Source: Poseidonibacter antarcticus
Lineage (GTDB): Bacteria > Campylobacterota > Campylobacteria > Campylobacterales > Arcobacteraceae
Direction: 5' to 3'
NCBI RefSeq assembly: GCF_003667345.1
Contig: NZ_RCWF01000001.1
Span: forward strand, 62,001-126,000
Length of the DNA stretch: 64,000 nucleotides
The notes beneath the pieces were generated by a model. It was not told the origin of the DNA. It was given only the letters and a program-made list of their open reading frames with translations, and did no database searches. Shown one piece after another: positions 18,875 through 26,465 of the stretch (positions are counted from its first letter, which is position 1; the number at the start of each line of letters is the position of its first letter). The position numbers and the translations under genes are program-made.

Positions 18875-19264
18875 TTAATCTTTTTTTGTTACTAATGAAA
18901 GGTTATTTAATTCATATTTTTGTAAGTTATCTAAAACTTTTACTATTTTTTCATAGATTACATCTTTATCTATTCTTACAATAATATTTTTCTTTTTATC
19001 TTTTATTTCTGCTAGTTTTAAATCTAGTTCTTCAATACTAACTTCTTTTCCATAAATTGCTAGTTTATCTTTACTTATTTCTAAAGAAATTTCTTTTGGT
19101 TCTACTTCTAGTTCTTGTGCTTTTGAAGATGGTAAGTTTAAAACCAATGCTAGTTCTTCTTTTTTAAAAACTGATGAAACTATAAAAAATATAAGTAAGA
19201 TAAAAACAACATCAATTAACGGCGTAATATCTGGTGTAATTGTTTCTCTTGGTTTTCTTCTCAT
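18875..19264 (-). CDS. exbD: ExbD/TolR-family biopolymer transport protein
   Basis: A 129-residue protein with one N-terminal membrane helix following ITPDITPLIDVVFILLIFF. The conserved Asp in LIDVVF carries the proton path, and the rest is periplasmic. With ExbB and TonB it turns proton-motive force into outer-membrane uptake. It overlaps exbB by four bases. The order tonB-exbB-exbD beside a Fur-boxed iron cluster favours ExbD over TolR. Confidence 0.92.
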   Translation of the reverse strand: MRRKPRETITPDITPLIDVVFILLIFFIVSSVFKKEELALVLNLPSSKAQELEVEPKEISLEISKDKLAIYGKEVSIEELDLKLAEIKDKKKNIIVRIDKDVIYEKIVKVLDNLQKYELNNLSLVTKKD

Positions 19265-19767
19265 ATCTTAGTTATAACTTTCTCTTCAATTTTATGTTCT
19301 AATTTGTCAATAAACCCTACTAAATAGTTATATCCAACATAATGAGGAATTGCAACAATTAAACCAGCAACTGTTGTAATAAGTGCTATTGAAATACCAG
19401 TTGAGAAAACGCTTGGATCTCCTAAACCAGATTTTGAAATAGAATCAAATGAATTTAAAACACCAACAACTGTTCCTAATAAACCAAGTAAAGGAGCAAT
19501 AGAAGCAATAATTTTAACAGTATTTAAACCACTTTCTAAACCTTTTACATATTTATCCAAGGCATTATCAAGGGTTTTTACTTCATACTTATCATTACTT
19601 TTTTCCATTGACTCTATGATTCTTTTAACAACTCTATCTTTGTTAAATTTTGCAATTGTTATAATAATTAACTTCCAAAACATAATTGTAAATCCAATTA
19701 TATTTAACCCAATTAAAATATATACAATCACACCACCTCGATTGATATAATCTATTAACTCTACCAT
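19261..19767 (-). CDS. exbB: ExbB/MotA/TolQ-family proton channel protein
   Basis: A 168-residue protein with three membrane helices (about 10-32, 82-108, 125-150). Conserved segments are IASIAPLLGLLGTVVGV and ISIALITTVAGLIVAIPHY. It forms the pentameric channel around ExbD that energises TonB. The short form is usual for Campylobacterota. It sits 14 bases after tonB and overlaps exbD, so all three form one transcript. Confidence 0.92.
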   Translation of the reverse strand: MVELIDYINRGGVIVYILIGLNIIGFTIMFWKLIIITIAKFNKDRVVKRIIESMEKSNDKYEVKTLDNALDKYVKGLESGLNTVKIIASIAPLLGLLGTVVGVLNSFDSISKSGLGDPSVFSTGISIALITTVAGLIVAIPHYVGYNYLVGFIDKLEHKIEEKVITKI

Positions 19768-19781
19768 TAACTCTCCTATTT

Positions 19782-20495
19782 TTAATTAATTATTGAATAA
19801 TTTATTGGAACTTCAATTGTCCAACTATTTTTTTCTAATTCTTTTGGAATTGCTTCAAATCTTGCAATTTTTTTAAGTAATTCTAAAGAAGCATTATTTA
19901 GTCTTTTATAAGAAGATTTTCCTACAATTTTTATGTTTCTTATATTTCCATTTTTTGTAATAAGAAATGAAACACGAACTTTCCCTTCCTGTCTTAATCT
20001 TTTCGCACTTTTTGGATAAACCTTATTTTGTTCTATTTTTCTCTTAACTTTTAACAAATATGCATTTTTTATTAGCTCTTTTGTAGCAGGAGAAACAACA
20101 ACTTTTTTAGTAATTTTAGGAACCTTTGCTACAGTTTGAGGGACAACTTGAGGTGCAGGTTTTTTTACCTCTTTTTTAATTGGTTTTTCAACTGGTTTTT
20201 TTATAGGTTTCTTTTTTACAACTTTTTTCTTAACTTTTTTTGCAACTTTTCTTTTAGCTTTTTTTACAATCTTTTTAACTTCTTTCTTTACTTGTACTTT
20301 CTTAACCTCTTCTACTACAGGTTTCTTTTGGATTTCTTTTTTCTTTAAAGTAACTTTTCGTAGAGAAATACTGTTAGCTTGAGGCTTTTCTAATGCCACT
20401 TCTTTTTTAGGCTCAGGTTTATATAAAGCAAAAGCAGAAAGATGAACAATTGATACAATTACTAATGATGTGACTAATGAGATTTTATTAAACAT
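19782..20495 (-). CDS. tonB: TonB energy transducer
   Basis: A 237-residue protein with an N-terminal membrane anchor (about 8-25), a long Lys/Pro/Val-rich periplasmic spacer (about 45-135, many KKPVKK units) and a C-terminal TonB fold with NKVYPKSAKRLRQEGKVRVS and SLELLKKI. It drives uptake through outer-membrane receptors, most likely for iron here, because a near-perfect Fur box lies 22 bases upstream. No TonB-dependent receptor gene is in the window. Confidence 0.93.
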   Translation of the reverse strand: MFNKISLVTSLVIVSIVHLSAFALYKPEPKKEVALEKPQANSISLRKVTLKKKEIQKKPVVEEVKKVQVKKEVKKIVKKAKRKVAKKVKKKVVKKKPIKKPVEKPIKKEVKKPAPQVVPQTVAKVPKITKKVVVSPATKELIKNAYLLKVKRKIEQNKVYPKSAKRLRQEGKVRVSFLITKNGNIRNIKIVGKSSYKRLNNASLELLKKIARFEAIPKELEKNSWTIEVPINYSIIN

Positions 20496-20516: not shown

Positions 20517-20531
20517 TGATAATAATTATCT
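20517..20531. promoter_or_regulatory. Fur box upstream of tonB
   Basis: TGATAATAATTATCT matches the 7-1-7 Fur consensus TGATAAT-N-ATTATCA at 14 of 15 positions and contains a perfect 6-1-6 core. It lies 22 bases before the tonB start, so Fur would repress tonB-exbB-exbD when iron is sufficient. Confidence 0.75.
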
Positions 20532-20642: not shown

Positions 20643-20756
20643 TTAAAGTTTGTCTGTTCTATTTCTTCTTTTTATCATTTTTTTAGATGTTTTAGTAATT
20701 GTTTTTGCAGTTATTGCGGCTGTTAATATTGTAGCTAGTGGTAATAAAAATCCCAT
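20643..20756 (-). CDS. 37-residue single-helix membrane peptide
   Basis: A short frame starting MGFLLPLATILTAAITAKT, with one hydrophobic helix and a basic tail ending KKMIKRRNRTDKL. An AAGGA ribosome site sits at proper spacing before the ATG, and Fur-like boxes lie just upstream. I know no family. It falls between the iron cluster and tonB on the same strand, so it may be a small membrane subunit of either. Length alone makes it uncertain. Confidence 0.5.
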   Translation of the reverse strand: MGFLLPLATILTAAITAKTITKTSKKMIKRRNRTDKL

Positions 20757-20768
20757 GAAATTCCTTTT

Positions 20769-20830
20769 TAATAATAATTATCAATAATTTTATCAAAAAG
20801 AAACTTATACGATTCTGATATTAATTATCA
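20769..20830. promoter_or_regulatory. Two Fur-box-like sites upstream of the 37-residue ORF
   Basis: TAATAATAATTATCA at 20769-20783 and TGATATTAATTATCA at 20816-20830 each differ from the 7-1-7 Fur consensus at one position. They fill the gap between the 83-residue gene and the small ORF, suggesting an iron-controlled promoter reading towards tonB. Confidence 0.6.
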
Positions 20831-20834
20831 TTTA

Positions 20835-21086
20835 TCAAATTTCTGGGATTATATCTTTATTTTCTATTTCTCTTTTCTCTTCTAATACTTTATTTACTTT
20901 CTTCTTTTTTGAATCATATAATAAAGTATGCCATAAAGTAAAACCACAAAAAGCCACACCACCAATGATATGAGCTTTTTTTGCAGCTTTATTTTTCATA
21001 AATAACGATGTTACAACTGTAACACCAAGAGTCGCTGTCATTCCAATTTTGGCAGTTTCTCTTTGTAATTCTTTATCAAATTTCAT
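20835..21086 (-). CDS. Small two-helix membrane protein of the iron cluster
   Basis: An 83-residue protein I cannot assign to a named family. A hydrophobic stretch with TATLGVTVVTSLFM (about 16-31) and another with HIIGGVAFCGFTLWHTLLY (about 39-57) are separated by a Lys/Ala turn, so it is probably a helical hairpin in the membrane. A charged cytoplasmic tail follows. It begins two bases after the P-type ATPase ends. The His residues in and near the second helix (H39, H53) could bind metal or heme; that is inference. Confidence 0.65.
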   Translation of the reverse strand: MKFDKELQRETAKIGMTATLGVTVVTSLFMKNKAAKKAHIIGGVAFCGFTLWHTLLYDSKKKKVNKVLEEKREIENKDIIPEI

Positions 21087-21088
21087 AT

Positions 21089-23191
21089 TTATTTTACTCC
21101 TTTTATTGAGTTTAATAATAATCCAATAGTTGTACCATTATGTAAAACAGCTGTTACGATTGGTGAAAACAATCCAAATGTAGCTCCTGCTAATATTGCA
21201 GAGTTTATACCTACTGTTGCATTAAAGTTATTACCTATTAATTTCATTGTTTTATTTGCTAATTCTTTTGCTTCAACAACTGCATAAATATCATCTTTTA
21301 ATAAAGAAACATCAGCAGTAGCTTTTGCTATATCAGCCCCACGACTCATTGAAATTCCTACATGAGCAGAAATCAATGCTGGTGCATCATTTATTCCATC
21401 ACCTACAAAGGCTACATTTTTACCCTCGGTTATAAGCTCTTTTATTATTGTTGCTTTATCTGTTGGTAAAAGTTCTGATCTTACTTCATCAATTCCTAAT
21501 TCTTTTGCAATCATTTCAGCTTTTTTCTTAGTATCGCCTGTTAGCATAACAATATTTTTTACACCAAGTTCTCTAAGCTTAGATATTGCTTCTTTTGAAT
21601 TTTCTCTTAAATTATCAGCAAGTGTAATTGTTCCTAAAAGCTTACCATCAAAACCTACATATAATAGTGTATGACCTTGACTTAATGATTTTTCAATTTT
21701 ATCTTTGTGTTGTGAAAAATCTATTTTTTCGTCATCTTCTAAAAAGTGTCTACTTCCAATAACTACTTGTTTTTTATCAACTTCTGTTTTAACGCCATGA
21801 GCTACGATAAATTCTACTTCTTCATGGTGCATATGAACAAAACCATTCTCTTTTGCAGCTTTTACAACTGCTTCTGCTACTGGATGAAAATAGTGTTCTT
21901 CTGTTGAAGCTGTAAGATTTAAGATTTTTTCTTTATCCCAATTATCATCATAAGATTCAACTGAAATTACTTCTAATTGACCTGCTGTTAATGTTCCTGT
22001 TTTATCAAAAACAAAAGTATCAGCATTATATAAAGCTTCAATTGATTTTGCACCTTTTATCATAATACCATTATGACCTGCTTTTGAAATAGTAGATTTA
22101 AAAGCAACTGGTGTTGCAAGTTTTAAAGCACAAGAATAATCAGCTTGTAAAATAGAAGCTGTTCTTTCAAAATCTTTTGTAAATACATAAGAAGTTGCAG
22201 CTAATCCCAATGTTACAGGAACTAGGCTATCAGCTAATTTTGTTGCTTTTAGTTGTACAGATGATTTTTCATTTAATGAACTTTCAATATAATGTTTAAT
22301 TCTTTGTGTAGCTGTATTAGTACCTACATACTCAGCCCAAACTCGTAATCTTCCATCTTCTATAATAGTTCCAGAAATAACTCTATCACCTCTTTGTTTT
22401 ATAACAGGTTCAGCTTCACCTGTCATAGAAACTTCATTTACACTTGCACTTCCATCTATAATATGTCCATCAATAGGCACTGTATTTCCAATACCTACAA
22501 TAACAATATCACCGATTTGTATATCTACACTTTTTATTAATACTTCGCTTGTTTTTCCATCAACTTCTCTTTCAACCCATGCTTCTTCAACATTTGGTTT
22601 TGAAAGTTCTTTTAATAAATCATCACTTTTATGAACTGTAGTTTCTTCAATATATTCACCAAGTTCAAGCATAACATTTGTAGAGTTTGCAGCTATATAA
22701 TCTTTTCTATAAATAGAAATACCAACAGCAGCACTTTCTAAAACTTTTGAAGTTAATCCTTCTGTAAAAAGTTCTTTTGTACCATCAATTAGCATAGGAA
22801 CAGCAGCAGCGGTTGTAATACCAGCTTTTAGCATATCATTTTGTATAAGTCTTTCTGAAACTAAAGCGGCACTAGCTCTAGCCATTCCTTTGATACTTGG
22901 CTCTTCATTACTTATACAAAATGTACAAGATTCTTCACTTGTACAAGAATTTAACAAGTTATCAGTATTTAAACTTGCTAATTCTTTTTCTATATTTTCA
23001 CAAACATTATTTTCATCAAAATCAAAAATAATACTATTTGCTTTTTTATTTATTCTTACAGCAATAACACCTTGTATTTTTTCTAAATTATTTTTTAGAA
23101 TATTTTCATCTAAATATTTCTCTTTTAATAAAGAAAATTTGTATCTTGCTCTATTTTTTGTACTATGTACTTTTTTAAATTCATTATTCAT
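21089..23191 (-). CDS. P1B-type heavy-metal ATPase, probable ferrosome-type (P1B-6) iron pump
   Basis: A 700-residue metal P-type ATPase with TGEA (257-260), a membrane motif SCALKLATP (353-361) in place of the usual CPC, DKTGT (396-400), FHPVAEAV, and GDGINDAP. The N-terminal domain lacks the GMxCxxC metal site. It has instead H9 followed by R14-A-R16, like the HxxGRxR motif of HMA2 domains, plus a Cys cluster C83/C89/C92. An Arg-rich N-terminus without CxxC is what I recall of FezB ATPases that load iron into ferrosomes. Fur, ferritin-like and YtxH-like neighbours support iron over copper or cadmium export. Confidence 0.82.
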   Translation of the reverse strand: MNNEFKKVHSTKNRARYKFSLLKEKYLDENILKNNLEKIQGVIAVRINKKANSIIFDFDENNVCENIEKELASLNTDNLLNSCTSEESCTFCISNEEPSIKGMARASAALVSERLIQNDMLKAGITTAAAVPMLIDGTKELFTEGLTSKVLESAAVGISIYRKDYIAANSTNVMLELGEYIEETTVHKSDDLLKELSKPNVEEAWVEREVDGKTSEVLIKSVDIQIGDIVIVGIGNTVPIDGHIIDGSASVNEVSMTGEAEPVIKQRGDRVISGTIIEDGRLRVWAEYVGTNTATQRIKHYIESSLNEKSSVQLKATKLADSLVPVTLGLAATSYVFTKDFERTASILQADYSCALKLATPVAFKSTISKAGHNGIMIKGAKSIEALYNADTFVFDKTGTLTAGQLEVISVESYDDNWDKEKILNLTASTEEHYFHPVAEAVVKAAKENGFVHMHHEEVEFIVAHGVKTEVDKKQVVIGSRHFLEDDEKIDFSQHKDKIEKSLSQGHTLLYVGFDGKLLGTITLADNLRENSKEAISKLRELGVKNIVMLTGDTKKKAEMIAKELGIDEVRSELLPTDKATIIKELITEGKNVAFVGDGINDAPALISAHVGISMSRGADIAKATADVSLLKDDIYAVVEAKELANKTMKLIGNNFNATVGINSAILAGATFGLFSPIVTAVLHNGTTIGLLLNSIKGVK

Positions 23192-23200
23192 TTAGAGTCA

Positions 23201-23578
23201 CTATTGTTGATTTGCTTCCATTTGAGCACGTGCATCTTCATATCTTTCTTTTAATTCTTCCATACCTGCTTGGAAAAATTCGCTTCCTTTTGAAGCAGCT
23301 TTCATAATACCTTGTTGAGCATTTTTATTTGTTAAAAGATATGTAACAGCAGCTCCAATTAAAGCTCCTTTAATAAAATCACCATTGTTAAATCCACTTT
23401 TTATAGGAGTTACTGGATTTGTTTGATTCATTTGAGCCATTTGACTTATTGGATTCATTTGAGAATCTAAAGGATTATTTACAGTTTGGTTTATATATGG
23501 ATTTTGATTACTATTCATATTTTGAACATTTGAAACTCTTGTATTTTCAATATTTGTATCATAATTATTATTTTGCAT
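23201..23578 (-). CDS. YtxH-like protein with Asn/Gln-rich N-terminus
   Basis: A 125-residue protein. The first 60 residues are low-complexity, rich in Asn, Gln, Met and Pro (MAQMNQTNPVTP). A glycine-containing hydrophobic helix (GDFIKGALIGAAVTYLLTN, about 67-85) follows, then an amphipathic helix of about 40 residues (FFQAGMEELKERYEDARAQ). The helix-plus-amphipathic tail is YtxH-like. It ends ten bases before the ATPase gene and overlaps the next gene by one base. Such proteins could coat or shape a membrane compartment; no function is established. Confidence 0.7.
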   Translation of the reverse strand: MQNNNYDTNIENTRVSNVQNMNSNQNPYINQTVNNPLDSQMNPISQMAQMNQTNPVTPIKSGFNNGDFIKGALIGAAVTYLLTNKNAQQGIMKAASKGSEFFQAGMEELKERYEDARAQMEANQQ

Positions 23579-23952
23579 TATTCACCTTCACTTATTAAAT
23601 CTGTAGCGTTATTTTCATTATTTTCAATTGGAGTATAATTAGCTCCTAATTTATCATCTATTAATTCAACAGCATAAATACCACTCATACCTATTGAAAG
23701 GGCTGTTAAAGCTTTTAAAAACCCACCTTTTTGCCCTAGATAATTTGTAGTAGCAATAGCAGTACCTGTTGCTATTGCTCCTTGAGAAGTTCTTTTTACT
23801 GTATCTTTTACAGCATCTTGTTGAGATATTTTATTTTCTTTTAATTTTTTATAGTTAATCGTACCTGAAACAACCGCCGAAGCTATTGCTCCACTTACAA
23901 TATGTCCTAGTACATTTCTAGGTTCTCCTAGATTTAACAATGGGTCTGTCAT
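23578..23952 (-). CDS. Small Gly/Ala-rich membrane protein of the iron cluster
   Basis: A 124-residue protein I do not recognise. Two glycine/alanine-rich hydrophobic segments (about 15-30, VSGAIASAVVSG; and about 78-96, LTALSIGMSGIYAVELI) flank a polar region containing DAVKDTVKRTSQGAIATG. The tail is acidic and Asn-rich (IENNENNATDL). The composition recalls small magnetosome or ferrosome membrane proteins, but I see no specific match. It overlaps both neighbours by one base, so it is made in fixed ratio with them. Confidence 0.65.
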   Translation of the reverse strand: MTDPLLNLGEPRNVLGHIVSGAIASAVVSGTINYKKLKENKISQQDAVKDTVKRTSQGAIATGTAIATTNYLGQKGGFLKALTALSIGMSGIYAVELIDDKLGANYTPIENNENNATDLISEGE

Positions 23953-24275
23953 TATTTTTCCTCAGTCTTTTTTTCTATCTTTTCTTCTATCGTCTCTTCA
24001 ACATCTTCAATTTTTTCTACTGTTTCAGTTTTTTCTTCATTTTCTTTTTTATCTAAAATTGCTTGTTCTTTTTTTTCTTTTATACATTGAGCTGTAGCGT
24101 CAATTGTTTGTTTTACTTCGCTTACAGTTTCTTTACCTTTTTCGTAAGAAGAATTTGCTACATCTTTTGATTTATTGAATAAATTTCCTGCTACTTTTTT
24201 GATTTTATCAGACTTATTTAAAGCTACAATTGCTCCTGCACCTACTGCTATTCCTAATATAAATGGTAATGCCAT
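23952..24275 (-). CDS. YtxH-like protein with acidic tail
   Basis: A 107-residue protein with an N-terminal glycine-containing membrane helix (PFILGIAVGAGAIVAL, about 4-19), an amphipathic stretch (LFNKSKDVANSSYEKGKET), and a very acidic Glu/Lys tail from about 75 to the end (VEKIEDVEETIEEKI). This is the YtxH domain layout. The acidic tail could face iron or a partner. It starts three bases after the ferritin-like gene. Confidence 0.68.
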   Translation of the reverse strand: MALPFILGIAVGAGAIVALNKSDKIKKVAGNLFNKSKDVANSSYEKGKETVSEVKQTIDATAQCIKEKKEQAILDKKENEEKTETVEKIEDVEETIEEKIEKKTEEK

Positions 24276-24278
24276 AAT

Positions 24279-24956
24279 TTATTCCTTATTGTTTTTATTA
24301 TTCATATAAGTATTTAAAAGTGCAACTGCCGCACCTCCAAAGCCTACACCACTAATCATTGAAATATTTAATTTAGAAAGAATTTCTGTTAATTTGCTTT
24401 GATCAATATTTCCATTCATCACATCATCAAATAAACCTTGATATTCTCCTAATTTTTGCATTAAATCTTCTTGATTAAATTCTTCGTTATTTGCAGCAGT
24501 ATAATGATTAATTACGCAGTTTCTAAATGCTGGTAAATGATTATTATAAGAAGCCGCTTGCAATCTAAATAAAACATCTTTAATATCAAGTTCAACTGTA
24601 TGTGATATTAAATTATCATACATTGCAATATTTTTTATTTCTGATGCAACACCTAATTCACAACATTCTATATATGTATTAGGTACTTCAATCTTTTCCG
24701 CCCAATCATTGATTGGAACTTCAACCCCATATTTTTCTAAAAGTGGAATAAGTACAGAATAATGTCTAGACTCAGCTTCTCTAATGTTTATAAATGGTTG
24801 AACAAATCCAAATTTTTCCATTATTTTTGTATATGTTTCATACGCTTTAAATTCATCATATACAGCAATTCTAAGAACTTGTGAAGTAATTTCTTCTTGG
24901 GCATTGACATCTACTCTTTGAGATAAGAGTATTTGTTCATTGATATTTTCTTCCAA
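24279..24956 (-). CDS. Ferritin-like (DUF2202-type) protein with C-terminal hydrophobic tail
   Basis: A 225-residue helical protein. Possible di-iron residues are E35, the pair E62-x-x-H65 (EAESRH), E100/E106 and H140 (SYNNHLPAF). The second ExxH of true rubrerythrins is not intact, since N138-N139-H140 replaces it; DUF2202-type proteins look similar. After residue 195 a Gly-rich hydrophobic segment (ISMISGVGFGGAAVALL) suggests membrane attachment, which is unusual for ferritins. One base separates it from the HMA2-like gene. Iron oxidation or handling is the likely role. Confidence 0.72.
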   Translation of the reverse strand: MEENINEQILLSQRVDVNAQEEITSQVLRIAVYDEFKAYETYTKIMEKFGFVQPFINIREAESRHYSVLIPLLEKYGVEVPINDWAEKIEVPNTYIECCELGVASEIKNIAMYDNLISHTVELDIKDVLFRLQAASYNNHLPAFRNCVINHYTAANNEEFNQEDLMQKLGEYQGLFDDVMNGNIDQSKLTEILSKLNISMISGVGFGGAAVALLNTYMNNKNNKE

Positions 24957-25271
24957 CTATACAACCTCCTTTGCTAATTTATTAATTAATAAAGTCAACT
25001 CATCAATGTTTTCATTTTTTATTAAATCTTCCCAAAGTTTTGGGCTAAATATTGAAGGATTATAGGTAATTGTAATTGAAGCAATAATCTTATTAATTTT
25101 TATAGTTTTTATTCCATCAATTTTATTTGGTATATCTTCAATATCTTTTAATGTTAAATTTCCACCCTCTTCTTTTATTTTTGGGTTTACTCTAACTCTT
25201 AATCTTCCTGGTGTATGAGCAATAATTGTAAAATATTTTGCTATTTTTATTATATCTTCTGAATTAATCAA
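24957..25271 (-). CDS. HMA2-like domain protein
   Basis: A 104-residue single-domain protein with the signature AHTPGRLRVRVNP (18-30), matching HMA2-type domains: a ferredoxin-like fold in which an Arg-rich loop replaces CxxC. The rest follows the expected alternation (IDGIKTIKINKIIASITITY). The same H-x-R-x-R feature is at the N-terminus of the ATPase in this operon, so the two may share a ligand or dock. It lies about 80 bases after the Fur gene and starts the structural part of the cluster. Confidence 0.75.
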   Translation of the reverse strand: MINSEDIIKIAKYFTIIAHTPGRLRVRVNPKIKEEGGNLTLKDIEDIPNKIDGIKTIKINKIIASITITYNPSIFSPKLWEDLIKNENIDELTLLINKLAKEVV

Positions 25272-25352
25272 AGTTTTCCTTTATTTTGAAATTTTATCTC
25301 TAAGGTCTTAAATAAATCTTTTTATAAAATCAGACTCATTATCATTATGTTT

Positions 25353-25802
25353 TTATTGACAATCTTCGCATAAACCATATATTGTCATAATATGGTCTTT
25401 TAAATTGAAATTATGTTTTTTAGCTACTTTTATTTGTTGTTCTTCTATAAAATCATCAGTAAACTCAACAATTTTCCCACAAGAAGTACAAACAAGATGA
25501 TCATGATGTAAAGCTATACTTAGTTCATATCTTTTAACACCATCGCCAATATCTAATAACTCAACAAGATTAAGTTCTTCAAAAAATTTCATTGTTCTAT
25601 AAACTGTAGCTATTCCTATATCTACGTTATATTCCATTTTTACTTTTGCATTAATTTGCTCTGCTGTTAAATGCTCATCCATAAAAAAAAGAATTTTTAG
25701 AATATAATCTTTTTGAATAGAGTTTTTATACCCTTTATTTGATATTTGTTTTTTAAAATTCTTTAAAAAATCATCAAAATCAATTTCATACTTATTCTCC
25801 AT
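25353..25802 (-). CDS. Fur-family metalloregulator
   Basis: A 149-residue Fur/PerR-type repressor. The winged helix includes IGIATVYRTMKFFEEL (recognition helix). The metal site HHDH (99-102) is followed by CTSC (105-108), and a second Cys pair CEDC closes the C-terminus (145-148), the structural zinc site. It is likely a paralogue dedicated to this cluster, not the global Fur; that is inference from position. Fur-box-like palindromes lie before and after it. Its ATG overlaps the stop of a 44-residue ORF. Confidence 0.88.
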   Translation of the reverse strand: MENKYEIDFDDFLKNFKKQISNKGYKNSIQKDYILKILFFMDEHLTAEQINAKVKMEYNVDIGIATVYRTMKFFEELNLVELLDIGDGVKRYELSIALHHDHLVCTSCGKIVEFTDDFIEEQQIKVAKKHNFNLKDHIMTIYGLCEDCQ

Positions 25803-25936
25803 TAGTTAATACCTTTTATAACAACTACTGCTATACTAACTATCAATCCTAATGTATAAACTTTCCACAAATTATTTTGTATTTTCTTATTGTTTCTATA
25901 AAACATTGAGTTTTCAATGCTATTTTCATTTTTCAT
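25802..25936 (-). CDS. 44-residue membrane peptide coupled to the Fur gene
   Basis: A short frame starting MKNENSIENSMFYRNNKK with a single hydrophobic helix near its end (VYTLGLIVSIAVVVIKG). AGAGG precedes the ATG, and its TAA overlaps the Fur gene's ATG as TAATG, a strong sign of translational coupling. It would be the first gene read from the Fur-boxed promoter. No family is known to me. Confidence 0.55.
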   Translation of the reverse strand: MKNENSIENSMFYRNNKKIQNNLWKVYTLGLIVSIAVVVIKGIN

Positions 25937-25947
25937 ATTATTGCCTC

Positions 25948-26063
25948 TAATAATTATTGTCAGAATAATACAGTTTATGCACTTAACATAATATTAATGA
26001 TAGTTAGTATCATTTTAATAAAGGGTTAAGTTTTTATTGCGTAATATTTGATAATTAATATCA
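25948..26063. promoter_or_regulatory. Cluster of Fur-box-like palindromes at the divergent promoter
   Basis: Three 15-base sites resemble TGATAAT-N-ATTATCA: TAATAATTATTGTCA at 25948-25962 (two mismatches), TGATAGTTAGTATCA at 25998-26012 (two mismatches, itself a near-perfect palindrome) and TGATAATTAATATCA at 26049-26063 (one mismatch). They lie between the leftward fur operon and the rightward 129-residue gene, so both sides are probably iron-controlled. Confidence 0.6.
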
Positions 26064-26075
26064 ATAAGGAAAAAC

Positions 26076-26465
26076 ATGTCAGCTCTAGCTTTAGTTAATA
26101 CAGTAGCAGGAAATGCGATACTAGGTTCAGTTAGTACAAAACTATTTGACTCTTTAATATCATCAAGATTTACACAAAAGCATGATAAAAATAAATGGTT
26201 AAGAGAAAAAACATTAAATCTTTTTTCAGAACTTTCACATAATATAACAGAAATCAATTGTGAAAATTTAAAGGAAAAACAAAAGCTAGTAAATGAATTA
26301 ACTTCAAAAATCAATCTTTTAATAGATGACAAAAAACTAAAAACAAATCTTAAAAACTACTCTTTTATTTTAAATGAATATGAGTGTTATAAAAGTGAGA
26401 TAAATTTAGAGCATATAAATGAAGAATTAATAAATACATTAAGGTTACATGTAAAAAAAATGTAA
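26076..26465 (+). CDS. Uncharacterised protein divergent from the iron cluster
   Basis: A 129-residue protein with no family I recognise. The N-terminus is small-residue-rich and mildly hydrophobic (ALALVNTVAGNAILGSVSTK); the remainder is charged and helical, with probable coiled coil from 45 to 85. Three Cys lie at 70, 113 and near the acidic centre. AAGGA precedes the ATG. A Fur-like palindrome lies 12 bases upstream, placing it in the same iron response as the cluster on the other strand. Confidence 0.7.
   Translation: MSALALVNTVAGNAILGSVSTKLFDSLISSRFTQKHDKNKWLREKTLNLFSELSHNITEINCENLKEKQKLVNELTSKINLLIDDKKLKTNLKNYSFILNEYECYKSEINLEHINEELINTLRLHVKKM

Follow-up and report, generated by a model that had tools for sequence, protein, structure and literature searches.

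A probable Fur-controlled ferrosome (fez) operon of Poseidonibacter antarcticus, encoding a ferritin-like protein and a MamC homologue, of a type recurring in Campylobacterota

The window of DNA analysed here, a stretch of 64 kb from Poseidonibacter antarcticus, in all likelihood carries a Fur-controlled ferrosome (fez) operon of a type found in Campylobacterota, as had been proposed in a preliminary description of the same sequence. FezA-, FezB- and FezC-like parts were all found together, the ATPase fell in the FezB clade, and the Fur boxes around the genes were conserved in relatives. We computed gene content, homologies, conservation, co-occurrence and Fur-box footprints, and from these we infer organelle formation, the direction and substrate of transport, and the roles of the accessory proteins.

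According to the ORF listing, the minus strand from 25936 to 20643 holds ten genes with nearly no gaps between them, so that the gene set described earlier, including its tight packing, was found in place and on that strand. A peptide of 44 residues with a single transmembrane segment (25802–25936, minus strand) opens the fur transcription unit, followed by a Fur paralogue (25353–25802; PF01475, E = 1.1e-33) that lies 5' of the fez operon. The operon then encodes an HMA_2 protein, a ferritin-like protein, a FezA-like YtxH-type membrane protein of 107 residues (23952–24275), a MamC-like protein, a second YtxH-like membrane protein of 125 residues (23201–23578), recognised by family scan and locus comparison, a FezB-type ATPase, an 83-residue haem-domain protein and, as seen by locus comparison, a membrane peptide of 37 residues (20643–20756), all on the minus strand. 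A tonB-exbB-exbD unit (18875–20495, minus strand) lies next to it and has the Fur-box signature in common with it.

The ATPase (21089–23191, minus strand, 700 residues) was found in family scans to carry an HMA_2 domain at its N-terminus (E = 9.4e-9, with an NRAR motif) ahead of a P1B core with the DKTGT motif. Its intramembrane sequence, DYSCALKLATPV, contains the motif SCALK and neither CPC nor SPC, and members of the FezB clade carry DYSCALKL at the position of CPC, with CCALK as the form seen in certain Clostridia. In a tree of 69 pumps it was placed within a 55-member clade (SH-aLRT 98) together with 54 FezB-type pumps from Shewanella, Photobacterium, Magnetospirillum, Thauera, Azospirillum, Desulfovibrio and Clostridia, these comparators being relatives (Shewanella, Desulfovibrio, Clostridia) rather than the proven FezB proteins of R. 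palustris, S. putrefaciens, D. magneticus and C. difficile themselves. The CPC-type pumps, including that of the window genome itself, were on the opposite side of the tree (support 99), and the position of the window ATPase is thus that of a P1B-6-type FezB, in a clade apart from the copper, zinc and cadmium exporters. Searching the PDB by sequence with the ATPase returned generic P-type structures only. The preliminary description had stated that the pump has no CxxC, which was inexact, as there is a CTFC at residues 89–92, in the linker past the HMA_2 domain; that motif is yet unconserved, any CxxC before DKTG being present in 20 of 109 homologues.

We consider it highly improbable that the locus is instead a copper, cadmium or zinc resistance cluster. 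A generic NCBIfam model of a cadmium-type pump subfamily does pass its cut-off with this ATPase (357 versus 313 bits), but the same generic models match an Azospirillum FezB equally well, the membrane helix lacks the motif of such exporters, both of the tree supports given above separate the pump from the CPC type, and the neighbouring genes are iron-related and accompanied by Fur boxes. Grouping with copper or cadmium exporters had been named beforehand as the outcome that would speak against a ferrosome, and an exporter identity of that kind was ruled out by the tree and the motif. As a separate observation, a second P1B ATPase having an HMA_2-like N-terminus but a CPC motif is encoded directly 5' of fez in three Arcobacteraceae and one Sulfurospirillum (L133:3702–5852, L135:3711–5894, L137:3804–5993 and L051:5464–7632), and these CPC-bearing pumps formed a clade of their own (support 100).

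Published work has established FezC as a cytochrome of the DUF4405-like haem protein kind (PMC10979944). HMA_2-DUF4405 fusions are present in Azospirillum and Desulfovibrio. In the window, both parts were found on separate genes. The HMA_2 protein (24957–25271, minus strand, 104 residues, TTG start, motif HTPGRLRVR) matched PF19991 at E = 2e-6 with 28.3 bits, just below the cut-off of 30 bits, and the 83-residue protein (20835–21086, minus strand) matched DUF4405 at E = 0.01, which is below the Pfam cut-off. Aligned with the Desulfovibrio and Azospirillum fusions, the latter protein displayed the two invariant histidines, 14 residues apart, with a similar flanking motif, and as judged from this alignment FezC is therefore split into two genes in the lineage of the window. 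This 83-residue protein, a tiny peptide in the preliminary description, is thus the FezC-type haem domain, which had been missed there. Two other loci (L133:10113–10748 and L051:11776–12423) encode an additional domain of about 120 residues C-terminal to the FezC haem domain, which in L133 looks SpoIIAA/STAS-like, an impression formed from the sequence.

Scanning the entire window for the Fur-box pattern TGATAATNATTATCA yielded four sites that deviate at no more than one position, every one of them at the fez locus: one ahead of tonB (20517–20531), two ahead of the gene for the 37-residue peptide (starting at 20769 and 20816, spanning 20769–20830, with a spacing of 47 bp) and the remaining one ahead of the 44-residue peptide/fur unit. 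Two more sites with two mismatches each precede that same unit, giving three palindromes at 25948, 25998 and 26049 (25948–26063), spaced by 50 and 51 bp. Shuffled windows gave 0.18 sites on average, and shuffling of the intergenic gaps reached the observed number in none of 2000 trials. In ten relatives, paired boxes 45–47 bp apart were found downstream of fezB, and boxes in the upstream region of relatives were spaced by 50 bp, as in the window. With predicted boxes conserved in both position and spacing, the fez operon would be under Fur control. A divergent gene of 129 residues (26076–26465, plus strand) has the upstream Fur-box region in common with the 44-residue peptide/fur unit; since a similar-looking and also divergent counterpart is found in another locus (L122, 12534–12911), it may share the control of that unit.

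These boxes also bear on whether the locus could encode an iron-efflux system, in which Fe(II) would be exported across the cytoplasmic membrane, with the ferritin-like and small membrane proteins buffering iron and no organelle being formed. Metal export is a common function of P1B ATPases, iron exporters linked to Fur (PfeT/FrvA type) exist, and neither transport direction nor membrane location can be read from sequence. Against this, the Fur boxes point to expression when iron is limiting, which would be the wrong time for an exporter, and the ATPase is a member of the FezB clade accompanied by YtxH-, MamC- and FezC-type parts; we accordingly regard efflux as improbable, and retain the ferrosome assignment.

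The Fur paralogue of the locus scored below the cut-off for canonical Fur (119.8 versus 200 bits for the equivalog model) and is one of four Fur-family genes in the window genome. Among the closest relatives compared, this second Fur type was found in the genomes with fez and was absent from most genomes of the same genus without it, the exception being one genome (G010) having second-type Furs and no fez. The stronger claim, that this Fur is dedicated to ferrosomes, was dropped on account of that genome. Of 109 fezB loci, 27 have the ferrous-iron transporter gene feoB within the surrounding stretch that was compared. In five relatives (L126:9717–11837, L122:9601–11724, L127, L128 and L129) it lies, divergently, between the second Fur and fez, a position at which the window has no feoB.

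Conservation of the gene set in relatives, which the preliminary description had suggested as a check, was pronounced. Orthologues of the ATPase with at least 47% identity were found in about 25 loci among 60 related genomes, all other pumps having at most 36%. In about 22 of these 25 Campylobacterota loci the order HMA_2, ferritin-like, YtxH, MamC-like, YtxH, ATPase and 83-residue protein was unchanged, the last gene being unrecognised in a few of them. The 37-residue peptide was often present, a Fur gene often stood at one or both ends, and the 44-residue peptide upstream of the Fur paralogue was kept in six relatives (tblastn, E from 1e-10 to 2e-5). With the order kept in so many loci, and both peptides conserved too, the gene set is far beyond chance. 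In one case, an Arcobacter from chicken meat (L035, CP134847.1), the operon is carried on a plasmid of 133 kb, with fezB annotated as two pieces, the 37-residue peptide fused to the FezC domain, and TonB-dependent receptors, a ChaN lipoprotein and a Tn3 transposase as neighbours.

When 150 Campylobacterales genomes were sampled, FezB (E below 1e-150) was found in 32. The MamC-like gene was present in 25 genomes, every one of them FezB-positive and with the gene at the fez locus. For the tailed ferritin-like gene the count was 24, again confined to FezB-positive genomes, and in each it lay within about 3 kb of fezB. Three FezB-negative genomes gave only weak matches, to plain, tail-less DUF2202 proteins. 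The seven FezB genomes having neither the MamC-like nor the ferritin-like gene belong to a single family (f14) with a shortened ATPase and are, as judged by their gene content, of a reduced fez type; in these genomes (G049, G140, G168, G180, G193, G217 and G238) the FezB match begins only past the HMA_2 N-terminus.

The core gene set was also found to recur in Alpha-, Beta- and Gammaproteobacteria. The operon of Azospirillum consists of six genes, encoding an HMA_2-DUF4405 fusion, HMA_2, YtxH, MamC-like, YtxH and FezB. In Gammaproteobacteria, among them Vibrio, Shewanella, Photobacterium and Kluyvera, the set is made up of HMA_2, a large YtxH-like protein, MamC-like, YtxH and FezB. Desulfovibrio loci consist of YtxH-like, FezB and HMA_2-DUF4405, and in Clostridia a YtxH-like protein is encoded immediately 5' of FezB; the FezA-like YtxH protein of the window is of the same type as those found 5' of fezB in both of these groups, and a small membrane protein of this kind likewise adjoins fezB in the window operon. 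The earlier suggestion of an undescribed variant thus stood for the ferritin-like part only. The YtxH-like genes are, by this comparison, ordinary parts of fez operons in other phyla, and among the loci compared TonB-ExbBD was found adjoining fez in the window genome only. It was consequently rejected as a part of the system and retained as a local neighbour sharing its Fur boxes.

The ferritin-like protein (24279–24956, minus strand, 225 residues, TTG start) ends in a hydrophobic Gly-rich C-terminal tail and matched DUF2202 at E = 7e-5 with 23.0 bits, above the Pfam gathering cut-off of 22 bits; 20 of 29 members of its family matched the same model at E 0.01. AlphaFold2, run with ten sequences, gave a confident four-helix bundle over residues 15–150 or so and a poorly defined tail. 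The closest solved structure was the DUF2202 protein MJ0754 (3q4n; E = 1e-9 by sequence and 4e-5 by fold), followed by ferritins and bacterioferritins. Outside Campylobacterota, such genes were found in fez loci of Thauera, Pseudothauera and a metagenome-derived genome of Gammaproteobacteria; the fez locus of a Methylocystaceae genome has one as well, placed divergently. The gene is thus a real variant feature, shared generally by the fez loci of Campylobacterota and not peculiar to the window.

Whether this protein oxidises and stores iron or rather serves a structural or regulatory purpose, for example as a vesicle coat or in docking, bears on its role within an otherwise correct ferrosome assignment. 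The candidate metal ligands E35, E62, H65, E106 and H140 were kept in 25 to 29 of 29 sequences, and MJ0754, itself a member of the ferritin-like superfamily, was crystallised with Zn, both of which speak against a structural or regulatory role. Of the six canonical di-iron ligands (E, ExxH, E, ExxH) five are present, the position of the helix-4 Glu being occupied by Tyr137, and most of the Campylobacter/Helicobacter fez proteins (L048, L052, L053 and L139) have lost E62, H65 and H140 with the gene being retained. Ferroxidase activity is for these two reasons not assured. The tail has a weak likeness (E 8e-5) to the membrane segments of YtxH-type fez proteins, which would fit a structural part, and suggests that the ferritin-like protein may be tethered to the same membrane. 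Taken together, we consider a purely structural or regulatory role rather unlikely and favour a protein that handles iron.

The Gly/Ala-rich membrane protein (23578–23952, minus strand, 124 residues), with its two hydrophobic helices and a charged loop, was present as first described, and its homology to MamC had then been missed. It matched NF038051, the MamC equivalog model, at E = 1.7e-6 with 28.2 bits, short of the 100-bit cut-off. This model was matched by 17 of 26 fez membrane proteins of the MamC-like kind (best E = 3e-11) and was the only family recurring among them. In whole-genome searches for MamC, 13 of 21 fez genomes gave a match, which where coordinates were checked was the gene beside fezB; in the window genome, the match adjoining fezB (E = 5.7e-6, 27.8 bits) was followed by a second, unrelated one at E = 0.03. 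Profile–profile alignment with hhalign, using as true MamC sequences those of Rhodospirillaceae genomes scoring above the NF038051 cut-off, matched MamC and the fez family at 97% probability (E ~1e-11) over 88 ungapped columns with about 30% identity, spanning both membrane helices and the charged loop and thus indicating full-length homology. Other small fez membrane proteins used as controls reached at most 38% and 36 columns against MamC, and the best of 100 column shuffles scored 18.9 and block shuffles 33.6, compared to 62 for the real alignment. A likeness due to mere Gly-rich hydrophobicity was rejected by these controls. By profile comparison the protein is hence a MamC homologue, and by its score one outside the MamC equivalog family.

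MamC is located in magnetosome membranes, where its loop controls the size of magnetite (PMC7604359). The acidic pair of that loop, E66/D70, aligned with a D..D in the window protein; as the pair is not kept in all fez relatives, contact of the MamC-like protein with mineral is proposed here as a hypothesis. Searching the PDB with a structural model of this protein gave no significant match, a result that is uninformative because we know of no solved structure of full-length MamC.

Combining these results, the operon could function as follows. Upon iron scarcity Fur would leave its boxes and the fez genes would be expressed, whereupon the YtxH-like and MamC-like small membrane proteins, together with FezB, might define or shape the membrane of a vesicle. 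On iron resupply, FezB would pump cytosolic Fe(II) into that vesicle, with the split FezC-type cytochrome, made up of the HMA_2 protein and the two-histidine haem protein, possibly acting in iron redox at its membrane. The ferritin-like protein, tethered by its tail, would bind iron and may oxidise it for mineralisation or could alternatively be a cytosolic acceptor or donor of iron, and the MamC-like protein may touch the mineral, as MamC does in magnetosomes. More speculatively, and as a possibility to which we give less than even chances, MamC of alphaproteobacterial magnetosomes was recruited from a wider-spread fez operon, with Campylobacterota and some Proteobacteria having a hybrid ferrosome store that includes FezB and a membrane-tethered ferritin-like protein. 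If that is true, ferrosomes and magnetosomes have in common a dedicated membrane protein that contacts the mineral.

Ferritins, which are protein cages, and ferrosomes, which are lipid vesicles, are generally regarded as the two alternatives for iron storage in bacteria, magnetosomes being a separate, third case. In the operon type described here, a ferritin-fold protein and a MamC relative are linked to FezB across a whole order, species of Campylobacter and Helicobacter included, which suggests that these three bacterial ways of holding iron have parts in common. Ferrosomes can be predicted in many Campylobacterota, FezA, FezB and FezC plus a MamC-like protein form a likely common list of parts across distant groups, and named genes are now available with which to test how the ferrosome mineral is nucleated. 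The kind of system is known. The literature found showed no apparent link of ferrosomes to MamC-like or ferritin-like genes, a statement on priority that is limited by the original accounts of Grant 2022 and Pi 2023 being outside that search; as far as that literature shows, what looks new is the ferritin-like component, the division of FezC into two genes, the additional peptides and the homology to MamC. The ferritin-like, split FezC and MamC features reach beyond Campylobacterota, to Thauera and others.

With regard to known systems, Grant and colleagues reportedly described, in 2022, the fez operons of Rhodopseudomonas palustris and Shewanella putrefaciens (six genes) and the fezABC genes of Desulfovibrio magneticus. 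Like these, the window operon has a FezB-type ATPase with an HMA_2 N-terminus, YtxH-like proteins, an HMA_2 protein, a FezC haem domain and a link to Fur, and the MamC-like protein is common to it and the proteobacterial fez relatives examined. In contrast to them, it adds the tailed ferritin-like protein, two extra tiny membrane peptides and a second Fur in an upstream unit, and has FezC split into two genes. In R. palustris, six fez genes underlie ferrosome formation (PMC12016538), and the Azospirillum operon has that same number. The ferrosome genes of Clostridioides difficile, as far as they are outlined in a later account of Pi et al. 2023, are fezA-fezB (PMC12574912). By analogy with related clostridial loci, the window operon resembles these in having a YtxH-like small membrane protein beside FezB and in its predicted repression by Fur, whereas the clostridial loci examined had no recognised MamC-like, ferritin-like, HMA_2 or FezC genes. 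Compared to MamC (Mms13, NF038051), the window protein is alike over the 88 aligned columns, but scores below the equivalog cut-off and is encoded in a fez operon. The four-helix bundle of the ferritin-like protein, finally, is like that of the DUF2202 protein MJ0754 (PDB 3q4n/3q4r), a match covering the bundle only, whereas the window protein has a Gly-rich hydrophobic tail fused to that bundle and a gene that is tied to fezB.
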